Shown one piece after another: positions 4,696-7,842 of a DNA stretch of 7,842 bases. This DNA comes from a bacterium (GTDB lineage Bacteria > Cyanobacteriota > Vampirovibrionia > Obscuribacterales > Obscuribacteraceae). Within the stretch, counting starts at the first letter, position 1. Every line of letters begins with the position of its first letter. Made by a program: the position numbers and the translations under genes. The DNA lies in NCBI GenBank assembly GCA_030431355.1, contig JAUIJG010000248.1, positions 1-7,842 of the forward strand. The letters are read 5' to 3'. The notes below the pieces were generated by a model. The model was not told the DNA's origin and did no database searches. It saw only the letters and a list, made by a program, of their open reading frames with translations.

Positions 4696-5502
4696 TCAAG
4701 AAAGATCAAAGACTATAAGGTCATGGGAAGCGATGAATCCACAAGCTTCCAATACTTTCTTAGATGCAATGTTTCCAGCGGCACAGCCGCAAACCGGACT
4801 GAAGTCATTCTCCAGACAAAAGCCTTTTTGATAGTTCACTATCTGCTTGGCGTAGCCTCTTCCTCGAAGATCGGGGTGCACCCACATGCCTATGTCAAAC
4901 CAATTTCGTCCATTGATAATGCGGAAGATATAGCCGCAGCCTATTAGATTCTCATCAGAATAGAAGAGATTGAGGTTCCTTCCTTCTATCATCCGCTCCA
5001 GTTCGTCGGGACTATCGGCCAGGTCATCGAACTTTGAAAGTTGCTCTCTATCTGAGGTCTCAGCCCAACGCACTTTAAAATCACCGGTACCACTGACAGT
5101 GGTAAAGTTTGGTCCGTATTCTCTAAATAGAATGCCACCAGCTTTGTAAGGAAGCTCTTTTCTTATACAACACTTGAGTAGGAGACTGTCAAAAGACTTG
5201 CAGTAAATTTTTTCCATTTTGGTATGGGATAGAACTGCCTCAAAGATCTCCTCCAAATTAGAGCGGTAGTGACTGGAAACAAAAAACTCCAACAAAATCT
5301 TTTCGCATTCAATGTAGTAGCCGGCAAGAGAATCGTCTATATGGATCAGAAAGAGTCGTCCTCGCCGGACCTGTTCTTCTATAAAGTACTCCTGGGCAAA
5401 CCCCAGGGAATTTAGATATTGGTCACGCATGGGCGGCGGCACGAATGACGCCTGCCCGGCTTGGGACCAATCTATCTCAGAGAGTTCAAAACGAATATAC
5501 AT
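4696..5502 (-). CDS. GNAT family N-acetyltransferase
   Basis: 268 aa, about twice the minimal GNAT length. The C-terminal half (about 142-268) is a clear GNAT domain: it opens with FKVRWAETSDREQL, has the acetyl-CoA pyrophosphate loop in MWVHPDLRGRGYAKQIV (206-222; RGRGYA at 213-218) and ends with the motif NIASKKVLEACGF (244-256). The N-terminal half (about 1-135) has weak GNAT-like secondary structure but no visible acetyl-CoA loop, so it may be a decayed second domain or a substrate domain. The acceptor is unknown. The start at 5502 is the first in frame after an upstream TGA, but no good Shine-Dalgarno precedes it. It is a single gene, convergent with the left operon and divergent from the metB leader. 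Confidence 0.85.
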   Translation of the reverse strand: MYIRFELSEIDWSQAGQASFVPPPMRDQYLNSLGFAQEYFIEEQVRRGRLFLIHIDDSLAGYYIECEKILLEFFVSSHYRSNLEEIFEAVLSHTKMEKIYCKSFDSLLLKCCIRKELPYKAGGILFREYGPNFTTVSGTGDFKVRWAETSDREQLSKFDDLADSPDELERMIEGRNLNLFYSDENLIGCGYIFRIINGRNWFDIGMWVHPDLRGRGYAKQIVNYQKGFCLENDFSPVCGCAAGNIASKKVLEACGFIASHDLIVFDLS

Positions 5503-5551
5503 AAGAAGAGGATATCATCCCCGGGGAGCATCATCTTTCCTTAACAATTCA

Positions 5552-5580
5552 CGGACAGGGCTGAAAGTGCCGCATATACA
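5552..5580 (+). promoter_or_regulatory. Possible promoter of the metB leader transcript
   Basis: CGGACA (5552-5557) and TATACA (5575-5580) lie 17 bases apart, a loose sigma70-like match (4/6 each). Transcription would begin near 5587, about 80 bases before the leader ORF. Another weak -10, TATGTT at 5619-5624, has no good -35. Neither is secure. No promoter-like pair is seen between the leader terminator and metB. Confidence 0.25.
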
Positions 5581-5645
5581 GCAAATTTCGAGTCCAATAG
5601 TCGCCTCAGAATAGACTCTATGTTACAAGCCAGCCTCAAGGTAGT

Positions 5646-5665
5646 GACATTCCTCCGGATATGTC
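5646..5665 (+). other. Upstream leader hairpin
   Basis: GACAT (5646-5650) pairs with ATGTC (5661-5665) and TCC (5651-5653) with GGA (5657-5659), leaving one bulged T and a TCC loop. It precedes the candidate leader starts at 5670 and 5679 and covers the alternative ATG at 5661. Its sequences recur in the protector hairpin downstream. Confidence 0.4.
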
Positions 5666-5669
5666 GATA

Positions 5670-5771
5670 ATGGTTGGCATGCAAATTCACTTCACCACCA
5701 CTATGACCATGGCTATGTCGATGCCCTCCGCAGGAGGGGGACATTGCGATGCTGGTGCTCAGGTGAGTTGA
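5670..5771 (+). CDS. Putative Met/Thr-rich leader peptide of the metB attenuator
   Basis: A small ORF of 33 codons plus TGA (5769-5771), ending 28 bases before the terminator stem. Residues 9-18 read TTTMTMAMSM. Met codons lie at 5703, 5709, 5715 and 5721, with more at 5670 and 5679; a single Cys codon follows at 5745. Alternating regulatory codons placed directly before a hairpin are the hallmark of attenuator leader peptides (compare the Thr/Ile runs of the E. coli thr leader). The peptide itself would have no other function; the ribosome's pausing would be the signal. The start is uncertain: in-frame ATGs at 5661, 5670 and 5679 are all possible, and the ribosome site is weak (GGA at 5657-5659, 10 bases before 5670). 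The Met run belongs to every choice. Translation is inferred, not proven. Confidence 0.7.
   Translation: MVGMQIHFTTTMTMAMSMPSAGGGHCDAGAQVS
5715..5744 (+). promoter_or_regulatory. Protector (1:2) hairpin of the attenuator
   Basis: ATGTC (5715-5719) pairs with GACAT (5740-5744), and CCCTCC (5724-5729) with GGAGGG (5733-5738), triloop GCA. Its 5' arm contains the last two Met codons of the leader ORF, so a ribosome paused there would break it and free the 3' arm. Confidence 0.65.
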
Positions 5772-5808
5772 TTTAACTAGCAAAAGAATTCGCAATTGTC
5801 GCCCTTCT
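5732..5808 (+). promoter_or_regulatory. Antiterminator pairing (2:3)
   Basis: AGGAGGGGGACA (5732-5743) can pair with TGTCGCCCTTCT (5797-5808): 11 pairs, one of them G-U, around a single G-G mismatch. It uses the 3' arm of the protector and the 5' arm of the terminator, so it excludes both. The shared AGGAGGG is identical at 5732-5738 and in the terminator 3' arm (5815-5821). Confidence 0.65.
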
Positions 5809-5831
5809 CTTTCGAGGAGGGCGCTTTTTTT
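5800..5831 (+). terminator. Intrinsic terminator in the metB leader (attenuator)
   Basis: CGCCCTTCTC (5800-5809) pairs with GAGGAGGGCG (5814-5823): 10 bp with one U-G, tetraloop TTTC, then C and seven Ts (5825-5831). No + strand gene other than the leader ORF lies upstream since the divergent GNAT gene, and metB starts only 48 bases later. So it serves as a leader attenuator or ends a short leader RNA. Confidence 0.9.
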
Positions 5832-5865
5832 CGTATCTACCCCAAGTACTCGCATCTACCAAAAC

Positions 5866-5871
5866 AAAGGA
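5866..5871 (+). promoter_or_regulatory. Ribosome binding site of metB
   Basis: AAAGGA ends 8 bases before ATG 5880. It fixes the start at 5880; the upstream in-frame ATG at 5796 lies at the foot of the leader terminator and would add 28 residues encoded by the hairpin. Confidence 0.8.
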
Positions 5872-5879
5872 TTTCAAAA

Positions 5880-7154
5880 ATGACAGCTCAAAACACTAAC
5901 TCCAACAATAACGGCAATACCCCCTGTACCAACGACCTGAGTGACTACGCGGACTTCGGCTTCGCCACCGCCGCCATTCACGCAGGTCAGGAAGCAGACC
6001 CCACCACAGGCGCCCTGGTCACGCCCATATTCCAGACTTCAACCTTTGTCCAAGAAGGCATAGGGGAGAACAAAGGCTATATCTACGCCCGCTCCCATAA
6101 TCCTACCCGCACGGCGCTGGAGAAAGCCCTGGCGGAGCTGGAAGGAGCCAAATATGGACTGGCTACATCATCCGGTCTAGCCGCAGCTTCCACTGTCATA
6201 AATACTCTCTCGGCAGGGGACCATGTCATCTGCGGCGAGGACGTATACGGCGGTGTTTATCGCCTATTCGAGAAGGTTTATAGACGTTTCGGAATCGAGT
6301 TTACCTATGTAGATGCTCGCAATCTGGAAGCCCTGGAAGCCGAAGTGAAAGAGAACACAAAACTGGTCTGGATAGAGAGTCCCACCAATCCACTGCTGAG
6401 ACTTGCCGACATCAAAGCCATCGCCGGGATCACCAGGAAGCATGGTCTCACCTTTGTGGTAGACAACACCTTCGCGACACCATATTTGCAGAAGCCCCTT
6501 TGCCTGGGAGCCGACATTGTCATCCATAGCACGACCAAATATATCAGCGGTCATAGCGATGTCATCGGTGGTGCGGTGATAACCGATAGAGATGATCTAT
6601 ATGAAGATCTTCAATTCAATCATAATGCAGTCGGCGCGGTCCCGGGACCATTCGACTGCTTTCTTGTCTTGCGCGGTCTCAAGACCCTTTCGGCAAGAAT
6701 AAGAGAACATCAAAGGAATGCCACAGCCATCGCCGAATATCTCGACAGACACCCTGCGGTGGAAGCGGTCTACTATCCGGGATTGAGTTCCCATCCCCAG
6801 TATGACCTGGCCAAAAAACAGATGAGAGGTCCCGGCGGGGTTGTCTCCTGTGTTCTGAAAGGTGGCTATGAAGCAGCAGCCCATGTGGTCAAGCATACAA
6901 AACTATTTCAACTGGCCGAGAGCCTGGGCGGAGTCAAGTCTCTAATCTGCCAGCCGGCCTCCATGACCCACAAGCCGATTCCAAAAGAGATCAGAGAGAA
7001 GAGCGGTATTGTGGATGGTTTGATCAGACTCTCCGTAGGTCTGGAAGAGACCGAAGATTTGATCAAAGATCTCGAAGCTGTATTGCCCAGAGAAGAAGAA
7101 CTGAACAAAGCAAAAGCTGACAAAGAGCTGGTTTCAGCCGGAGGTCGAAAATGA
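5880..7154 (+). CDS. metB: Cystathionine gamma-synthase/lyase family PLP enzyme
   Basis: 424 aa, Cys/Met-metabolism PLP enzyme (fold type I, cytoplasmic, tetrameric in the family). Cystathionine gamma-synthase joins cysteine to an activated homoserine in methionine synthesis; close relatives are gamma-lyases or sulfhydrylases. Visible sites: YARSHNPT (69-76, Tyr69 and Arg71 contact the PLP phosphate of a neighbouring subunit), SSGL (97-100), Asp195 (VDNTFATPYLQ; pairs with the PLP ring nitrogen) and the Schiff-base Lys220 in HSTTKYISGHSDVIGG. Near the C-terminus LGGVKSL has Lys353 where many synthases and lyases have Glu. The N-terminus has an extra, Asn-rich, low-complexity stretch of about 25 residues and the C-terminus a charged tail. 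The overlap with an aspartate kinase gene and the Met-rich leader favour a synthase role over a lyase one. Family is secure; exact reaction less so. Confidence 0.88.
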   Translation: MTAQNTNSNNNGNTPCTNDLSDYADFGFATAAIHAGQEADPTTGALVTPIFQTSTFVQEGIGENKGYIYARSHNPTRTALEKALAELEGAKYGLATSSGLAAASTVINTLSAGDHVICGEDVYGGVYRLFEKVYRRFGIEFTYVDARNLEALEAEVKENTKLVWIESPTNPLLRLADIKAIAGITRKHGLTFVVDNTFATPYLQKPLCLGADIVIHSTTKYISGHSDVIGGAVITDRDDLYEDLQFNHNAVGAVPGPFDCFLVLRGLKTLSARIREHQRNATAIAEYLDRHPAVEAVYYPGLSSHPQYDLAKKQMRGPGGVVSCVLKGGYEAAAHVVKHTKLFQLAESLGGVKSLICQPASMTHKPIPKEIREKSGIVDGLIRLSVGLEETEDLIKDLEAVLPREEELNKAKADKELVSAGGRK

Positions 7155-7842
7155 AGATCAGCGTCCTTAAATTTGGCGGCACCTCGGTCAAGTCCGTGGC
7201 ACGCATCAGCCATGTGGCATCGGTCATAGCTGCCGACCCGGCCGAAAAGAAGATCGTGGTGCTCTCGGCCATGGGTGATACCACAGACTATCTATTACGC
7301 CTGGCAAAACAATGTTCCGAGCTACCGGACAAAAGGGAACTCGACCTGCTTCTCTCCAGTGGGGAGCAGGTGAGCACCTCGCTTCTGTCGATTAAACTGC
7401 GGGAATTTGGGGTGAACGCAAGGGCATATACCGGGCAACAGCTCGGTATATGCACCGACAGCAGCCATACGGAAGCACGCATCAAAGAGATAAATAAAGA
7501 GCTGCTTCTATCAAAACTGGAAAAATGTGATGTTTTAATCGCAGCTGGGTTCCAGGGCATAGACCAACTCGGAGAGATCACTACCCTGGGTCGTGGCGGT
7601 TCGGATACTTCGGCGGTGGCCCTGGCTGCTTGTGTCGGCTCAAACGTGTGTGAAATCTACACCGATGTGGACGGAATATACACCGCTGATCCCAATACCG
7701 TCAAATCTGCGGTGATTCGCAAAGAGGTCAGCTACAAAGAAGCAACCTTGCTTGCTTACTCAGGCGCCCAGGTGATTCACCCAAGAGCGGTGGAGTTGGC
7801 AGCCGACTATGACATTCAAATCAATATAAGAAACACTTTTAA
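7151..7842 (+). CDS. lysC: Aspartate kinase, 3' end beyond the window
   Basis: 230 residues are visible from ATG 7151 with no stop before the window ends; family members have about 400-460. It phosphorylates aspartate, the first step toward lysine, threonine and methionine. Motifs: KFGGTSV (7-13, ATP/aspartate site), SSGEQVS, AAGFQGID, GRGGSDTSA (147-155), YTDVDGIYTADP (170-181) and HPRAVELA. The visible part is the catalytic kinase domain; the regulatory ACT domains would lie beyond the edge, so feedback type (Lys, Thr or none) cannot be judged, nor whether a homoserine dehydrogenase domain is fused. The ATG overlaps the metB TGA (ATGA), so the two are co-translated, recalling E. coli metBL. 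The leader attenuator would control both. Confidence 0.93.
   Translation, partial: MKISVLKFGGTSVKSVARISHVASVIAADPAEKKIVVLSAMGDTTDYLLRLAKQCSELPDKRELDLLLSSGEQVSTSLLSIKLREFGVNARAYTGQQLGICTDSSHTEARIKEINKELLLSKLEKCDVLIAAGFQGIDQLGEITTLGRGGSDTSAVALAACVGSNVCEIYTDVDGIYTADPNTVKSAVIRKEVSYKEATLLAYSGAQVIHPRAVELAADYDIQINIRNTF

Follow-up and report, generated by a model that had tools for sequence, protein, structure and literature searches.

A short open reading frame rich in methionine codons lies upstream of metB-lysC and probably acts as the leader of a ribosome-mediated transcription attenuator responding to the level of charged elongator Met-tRNA; on the sequence evidence, we put the probability of this reading at roughly 0.87. 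The locus was found in a 7,842-nucleotide stretch of DNA from a bacterium of the Obscuribacteraceae, and "the window" below means this whole stretch. Repeated codons for the end product, an intrinsic terminator, and a mutually exclusive antiterminator (in 23 of 24 folds) were found in the 24 leaders compared, that of the window included. The reading is also supported by the promoter-like spacing in front of the leader and by the way the leader tracks with the metB-aspartokinase ortholog.

Leader open reading frame and its start

The features of the locus are as follows.

4696-5502, minus strand: divergent GNAT-type gene (Pfam Acetyltransf_19 and Acetyltransf_1)
5644..5649, plus strand: predicted -35-like hexamer GTGACA, chosen as the best match with spacings of 15-19 nt allowed
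5666..5671, plus strand: -10-like hexamer GATAAT, 16 nt past the -35-like hexamer and 7 nt ahead of the leader ATG
5679..5771, plus strand: leader ORF, translated as MQIHFTTTMTMAMSMPSAGGGHCDAGAQVS* (asterisk, stop codon), probably on a leaderless transcript; leader present in 23/23 orthologous loci
5703..5723, plus strand: candidate regulatory Met codons, ATG at 5703, 5709, 5715, and 5721, from in-frame ATG conservation
5724..5738, plus strand: segments 1:2, candidate protector hairpin CCCTCC-GCA-GGAGGG, from a 39-nt fold beginning at 5721 (-11.6 kcal/mol)
5732..5808, plus strand: segments 2:3, antiterminator, a long hairpin, from folding and covariation
5800..5823, plus strand: segments 3:4, intrinsic terminator hairpin CGCCCTTCTCTTTCGAGGAGGGCG (-17.6 kcal/mol), from covariation and a shuffle control
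5824..5831, plus strand: U tract of the terminator, CTTTTTTT, from the sequence
5880..7154, plus strand: metB, cystathionine gamma-synthase type, from the ORF and its PRK07811 match
7151..7842, plus strand: lysC, aspartate kinase, from a family match; the gene exceeds the window end

The leader region is the gap between the divergent GNAT-type gene and metB-lysC. The sequence-only reading had placed a methionine-pathway operon downstream of the leader, and this was confirmed by the match of 5880-7151 to PRK07811 (cystathionine gamma-synthase), which at 516.1 bits is barely over the curated cut-off of 513, together with the aspartate kinase from 7151. In several relatives, the N-terminus of MetB (5880-5960 in the window) is variable and rich in Asn, Thr, Ser, and Cys. 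A search of plasmid sequences found no DNA resembling the window.

On the plus strand, the leader frame is open from the ATG at 5661 to the TGA at 5769-5771 and contains two further ATGs, at 5670 and 5679. The short ORF first noted here was real and its Met codons at 5703, 5709, 5715, and 5721 matched the sequence; the start had been placed at 5670, and 5679 is the likelier one, because a transcript driven by the GTGACA/GATAAT pair would be expected to begin near 5678-5679. The leader is probably translated from a leaderless transcript. TTGACA or TTGACT occupied the -35-like position in 19 of the 23 relatives, with a chosen spacing of 16-17, and NATAAT was found 3-13 nt before the ATG of the Met-rich ORF in all 24 leaders and in 0 of 2400 shuffles. 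The -10-like box stood 6-7 nt from the ATG in 23 of 24 leaders and 3 nt from it in G008, a weak member that has three internal Met codons. Six Shine-Dalgarno-like motifs were tried, and none of the 24 leaders had one. When 5503-5877 of the plus strand was shuffled with dinucleotides kept, four ATG codons in a stop-free stretch of seven codons arose once in 5000 shuffles, and shuffling of the leader letters alone gave at least four in-frame ATGs in 166 of 20000 trials. Conservation is stronger evidence for the leader than these estimates of chance.

Conservation of the Met codons

The closest named relative locus (L001, MetB 71% identical) belongs to G001, a MAG labelled 'Proteobacteria bacterium isolate Centralia_MAG_505', and its upstream region contains MQFLSTMTMAMSMPSGGGWHRRTGLA* followed by a terminator. 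For comparison, 53 genomes from the order to which G001 belongs were searched, and all 53 gave MetB-like matches. We examined 70 MetB-like loci, mostly passing over fragments at contig edges and matches with less than 47% identity; the 70 consisted of 23 without an upstream CBS gene, 45 behind a CBS gene, and 2 of G010. In 22 of the 23 orthologous loci, an aspartate kinase gene lies downstream of metB, and in the 23rd the sequence ends with metB. A Met-rich leader (at least four Met including the start) was present in 23 of 23 metB-aspartokinase loci, where it ended 104-172 nt upstream of the start of MetB homology; when the upstream regions were shuffled, 46 of 2300 passed the same filter. 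Among the CBS-linked paralog loci, 1 of 45 passed (L156), with the ORF 218 nt upstream and within the CBS gene, and a looser filter (three Met) applied to 38 of the 45 gave two more short ORFs; these regions are largely coding and hence no like-for-like intergenic control. The remaining two loci of G010 were one fragment and one homolog with 47% identity. Model R1, which was made from the 24 leaders, added G010, in which MQFFATTMGMAMSTSTEGRSCHTSR* lies ahead of an aspartate kinase, and G013, where a leader ahead of a metB fragment was indicated by the model match alone.

Past the start codon, the 24 leaders contained 99 ATG triplets in frame and 3 and 2 in the other frames, and over the first 17 codons the ratio across the three frames was 90:0:0; the ORFs had been selected for Met content, and the shuffle control is therefore the fair yardstick for these counts. 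All 24 leaders had 3-7 internal Met codons, and Met was the commonest leader residue (99/647; Thr, 47/647). The codons between them varied (ACN, GTA, CCG, CAA, AGC, and AAC), and the positions of Met shifted among leaders, as in MTMAMSM, MMSMQMMM, and MNMCSMMSM. Because neighbouring codons change and Met positions move, this pattern fits selection acting on the Met codons and not on a motif in the RNA or the structure of a peptide. The alignment proposed along with the initial reading, in which ATG should be kept while other codons drift, gave the expected pattern in the regions upstream of the 23 metB-aspartokinase orthologs.

Two other readings of the leader were weighed against these comparisons. 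The locus could instead serve to make the peptide, as a small protein rich in Met, with the terminator as no more than a partial transcript end; the conserved ORF and its recurring N-terminal style (NRST or NRAT, then alternating Met) are in line with this. Such a protein is very unlikely, because the C-terminal half of the leader drifts; moreover, the Met positions shift, the length varies from 22 to 31 aa, and the ORF overlaps a covarying antiterminator. The other reading has the attenuator respond to Thr or the aspartate family instead of Met, in the manner of thrL, and the window leader, described at first as Thr-rich, does have four Thr beside its four internal Met and an aspartate kinase in its operon. 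Across the relatives, however, at least three Thr occurred in 9 of 24 leaders and none in 4 of 24, whereas all 24 had at least three internal Met. Since those four leaders lack Thr, sensing of Thr is highly improbable, and Thr content gained no support as a signal.

A separate two-mismatch pattern search matched 48 of the 53 genomes, and five matches (L226-L230) were fetched; pattern matches were not counted as evidence, and four of these five read in other frames of genes or beside genes. L226 (G001:C549, around 15250, minus strand) is an intergenic 13-codon ORF, MTMTMAMAMLNFP, and the next gene has no clear link to Met.

Terminator and alternative hairpins

The strong terminator noted past the leader ORF is present at 5800-5823 with a predicted free energy of -17.6 kcal/mol, followed by CTTTTTTT, and the gap between it and the stop codon (5769-5771) is 28 bases, as first described. 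When 5730-5810 was folded, a single long hairpin was obtained (-35.7 kcal/mol; z of -5.2 versus shuffles) that ends in the 5' arm of the terminator (segment 3) and carries the stop codon in its apical part. Segment 2 is G-rich and begins 8 nt past the last Met codon, and segment 1 (CCCTCC), immediately 3' of that codon, can pair with segment 2. Helices 1:2, 2:3, and 3:4 are mutually exclusive, and this three-helix layout is that of classical attenuators.

A terminator preceded a T-rich tract in all 24 leaders, with free energies of -14.8 to -25.9 kcal/mol, and 0 of 480 shuffles reached the observed stability. The 5' arm of the terminator was paired within the antiterminator in the minimum-energy folds of 23 of the 24 (the exception was G023); in relatives, the antiterminator starts 5-16 nt past the last Met codon, and its z-scores ranged from -6.1 to -1.4, the latter being weak. 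Covariation was scored in alignment A1, which has 24 rows, 23 of them distinct. The antiterminator scored 0.328 versus 0.242 for shuffles (0/500 reached it; slid structures at most 0.180), with both partners changed in 15 of 21 pairs, and the terminator scored 0.436 versus 0.312 (0/500; slid at most 0.308), with both changed in 9 of 12; the structures were derived from folds of the same sequences, and these scores are consequently somewhat self-favouring. The number of further pair types was not above shuffles, being reached by 369 of 500 for the terminator and 274 of 500 for the antiterminator, and kinship of the alignment rows can inflate the remaining covariation measures. For the 1:2 hairpin, 80.7% of cells were paired in the 23 distinct rows versus 58.5-66.2% when slid; its covariation in A1 gave no support, since shuffles and the slide by -3 scored equally. 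This hairpin is weaker in some relatives, for example G051 (-7.3 kcal/mol). Overall, the proposal of a Met-codon attenuator gained support from the Met leader conserved in 23 of 23 loci and from the presence of a mutually exclusive, covarying antiterminator.

A terminator and an antiterminator would also be present if a ligand-binding riboswitch for SAM, Met, or another metabolite drove the terminator and the Met-rich ORF were incidental, and SAM riboswitches regulate met genes elsewhere. There was, however, no match in the window to any of 4227 Rfam families at the gathering score, T-box included, and the SAM-I riboswitch (RF00162), the one SAM class searched in the relatives, was found in 0 of the 53 genomes of the order, with a control that matched in 3 of 14. 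In addition, ATG is held to one frame (99 versus 5), and a transcript start near the ATG would leave little room for an aptamer beyond the ORF and the switch. A riboswitch was accordingly given a small chance.

The attenuation scheme is inferred as to where transcription starts, whether the leader is translated and stalls the ribosome, whether 1:2 serves as protector, and how the operon responds to Met. In this scheme, RNA polymerase would begin at or beside the leader ATG and a ribosome would load on the leaderless end. When Met is short, the ribosome would stall on the run of ATG codons and cover segment 1 (CCCTCC), so that segment 2 could pair with segment 3 and transcription would read through into metB-lysC. 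When Met is plentiful, the ribosome would advance, 1:2 would re-form behind it, and 3:4 would terminate transcription. Without translation, 1:2 would form too, which makes the default state off. A Met shortage should also slow initiation and favour the off state, and this counts against the attenuator reading. The leaderless appearance of the leaders would also suit sensing chiefly through initiation, by the supply of fMet-tRNA at the leaderless AUG and not by elongation at internal Met codons, and a similar idea has been voiced for the fthC uORF of Streptococcus in the accessible text of PMC11109978. Sensing of this kind is extremely unlikely: it leaves the 3-7 internal Met codons unexplained, and loss of initiation predicts formation of 1:2, the wrong sign for starvation.

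Leaders elsewhere in the class and known systems

Model R1 was searched over 382 genomes of the class, and 15 matches besides the metB set were inspected. Full-length matches also occurred in small genomes of the class. In the 12 small-genome leaders inspected, ORFs like MQNNTMMMQMMMMQSLMSGGHCYADRMC* were found, with a terminator and an excluding antiterminator in 12 of 12, and covariation of the antiterminator was 0.187 versus 0.141 for shuffles (2/500 reached it). In several of them, AAGGA-like stretches were seen by eye upstream, and these leaders may therefore not be leaderless. A class-wide tally of R1 (173/382 genomes at E <= 0.1) was discarded, as many of the listed matches hit the terminator end alone. 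In the phylum, 55 of 386 genomes had an R1 match at E <= 0.001; apart from G462 (E 3e-4), the full-length matches among those listed fell in genomes that the class search had already reached, and we make no claim past the class.

The downstream family of the small-genome leaders, P0001, is present in 177 of the 382 class genomes. It had no Pfam or NCBIfam match, and a fold search with its structure model (pLDDT 70.8) gave no match at E <= 0.001; a role in amino-acid uptake is a guess. The closer P0001-like loci listed number 74 (E <= 4.9e-97, a cut that we set), and 41 of the 42 examined among them (L214-L225 and L257-L286) had a Met-rich leader, the exception being G230. In distant P0001 paralogs (L287-L296), the short leader ORF had adjacent Trp codons in 10 of 10 examined. 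The amino acid of the leader switches with the paralog, as expected if the codons are the sensor.

In G001 (L213:511-678, equal to G001:C60:18610-18777), a leader in which Cys and Met codons alternate, MQNQRQSICMCMCMNCRKSRRVCHCACMC*, is followed by a terminator and then by cysD, the sulfate adenylyltransferase small subunit. CysD matches were obtained in 21 of the 53 genomes, one above the cut-off, and 27 of 28 CysD loci failed the motif rule when scanned upstream; a rescan of these 27 gave three Cys-rich short ORFs, which we read as ends of zinc-ribbon proteins. The Cys/Met leader before cysD has so far been seen in one genome. At L212 (G026:C30:16690-16842, minus strand), a weaker Met-containing leader (MNNRLMRNCHMFLTPRGG...) is followed by a gene whose product has a PLP-dependent decarboxylase domain (PF00282). 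A search for metX (homoserine O-acetyltransferase, TIGR01392) gave weak matches in 16 of the 53 genomes, none above the cut-off; none of the 9 matching control genomes passed the cut-off either, and so the absence of metX is weakly evidenced. We consider it fairly probable that Met-codon attenuation is class-wide, operating on metB-lysC in one order and on the uncharacterised small-genome family, with a shared three-segment RNA logic in which the leader amino acid (Met, Trp, or Cys) follows the downstream gene, and that it fills the role that SAM riboswitches or MetJ have elsewhere.

Attenuation is a textbook mechanism for His, Trp, Thr, Leu, and Ilv. The leader described here has in common with the classical trp, his, thr, leu, and ilv attenuators an ORF with end-product codons, an exclusive antiterminator, and an intrinsic terminator ahead of the first gene; it differs in using Met as the regulatory codon, in being apparently leaderless, in its host group, and in a stop codon well past segment 2. 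In the trp attenuator the stop codon is not known to lie well downstream of segment 2, and this contrast counts against the attenuator reading here. Leaderless polycysteine attenuators were reportedly described in mycobacteria by Canestrari in 2020. A citing paper, in its accessible part, terms the mycobacterial system translation attenuation (PMC13236596); as far as that text goes, it shares with the present leader a leaderless short ORF carrying codons of the regulated amino acid and differs in using Cys, not Met.

The accessible text of PMC8079986 describes the amino-acid attenuator mechanism and proposes a methionine leader, metL, before metNIQ of Streptomyces lividans. Like the present leader, metL precedes a methionine gene and its start is reported to be leaderless; unlike it, metL has two Met past the start, a typical Rho-independent terminator is reported missing, and the downstream metNIQ encodes an importer. 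Control by Met through the 5'UTR, as proposed here, is also described for the met operon of Xanthomonas campestris, where, as far as the accessible text goes, it is mainly translational, with transcription attenuation as a possible contributor (PMC6230763); the words 'leader' and 'terminator' are absent from its main text. A Met leader goes unmentioned in the available part of a survey of premature terminators (PMC2965389), and the available part of an actinobacterial survey reports that conserved RNA structures were not seen upstream of methionine operons (PMC1262725). The sequence-only reading had suggested that a Met-codon attenuator may be new. In literature that mostly excluded subscription papers, and parts of which were seen, we found no clear Met-codon transcription attenuator, the nearest being the weak S. 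lividans metL proposal. As far as seen, the mechanism is of a known kind; what is new is the use of Met, the host group, and a leader that is probably leaderless.

If the reading is true, genomes in which no SAM-I riboswitch was found would have a means of Met control in the attenuator. The change of leader codons from one paralog to another is a hint, from sequence alone, about the unannotated P0001 family. A Met scheme looks self-defeating because a shortage of Met limits initiation too; if it nevertheless operates, the demands for elongator and initiator Met would be separable enough for control, and the leader would offer a system in which to test this.
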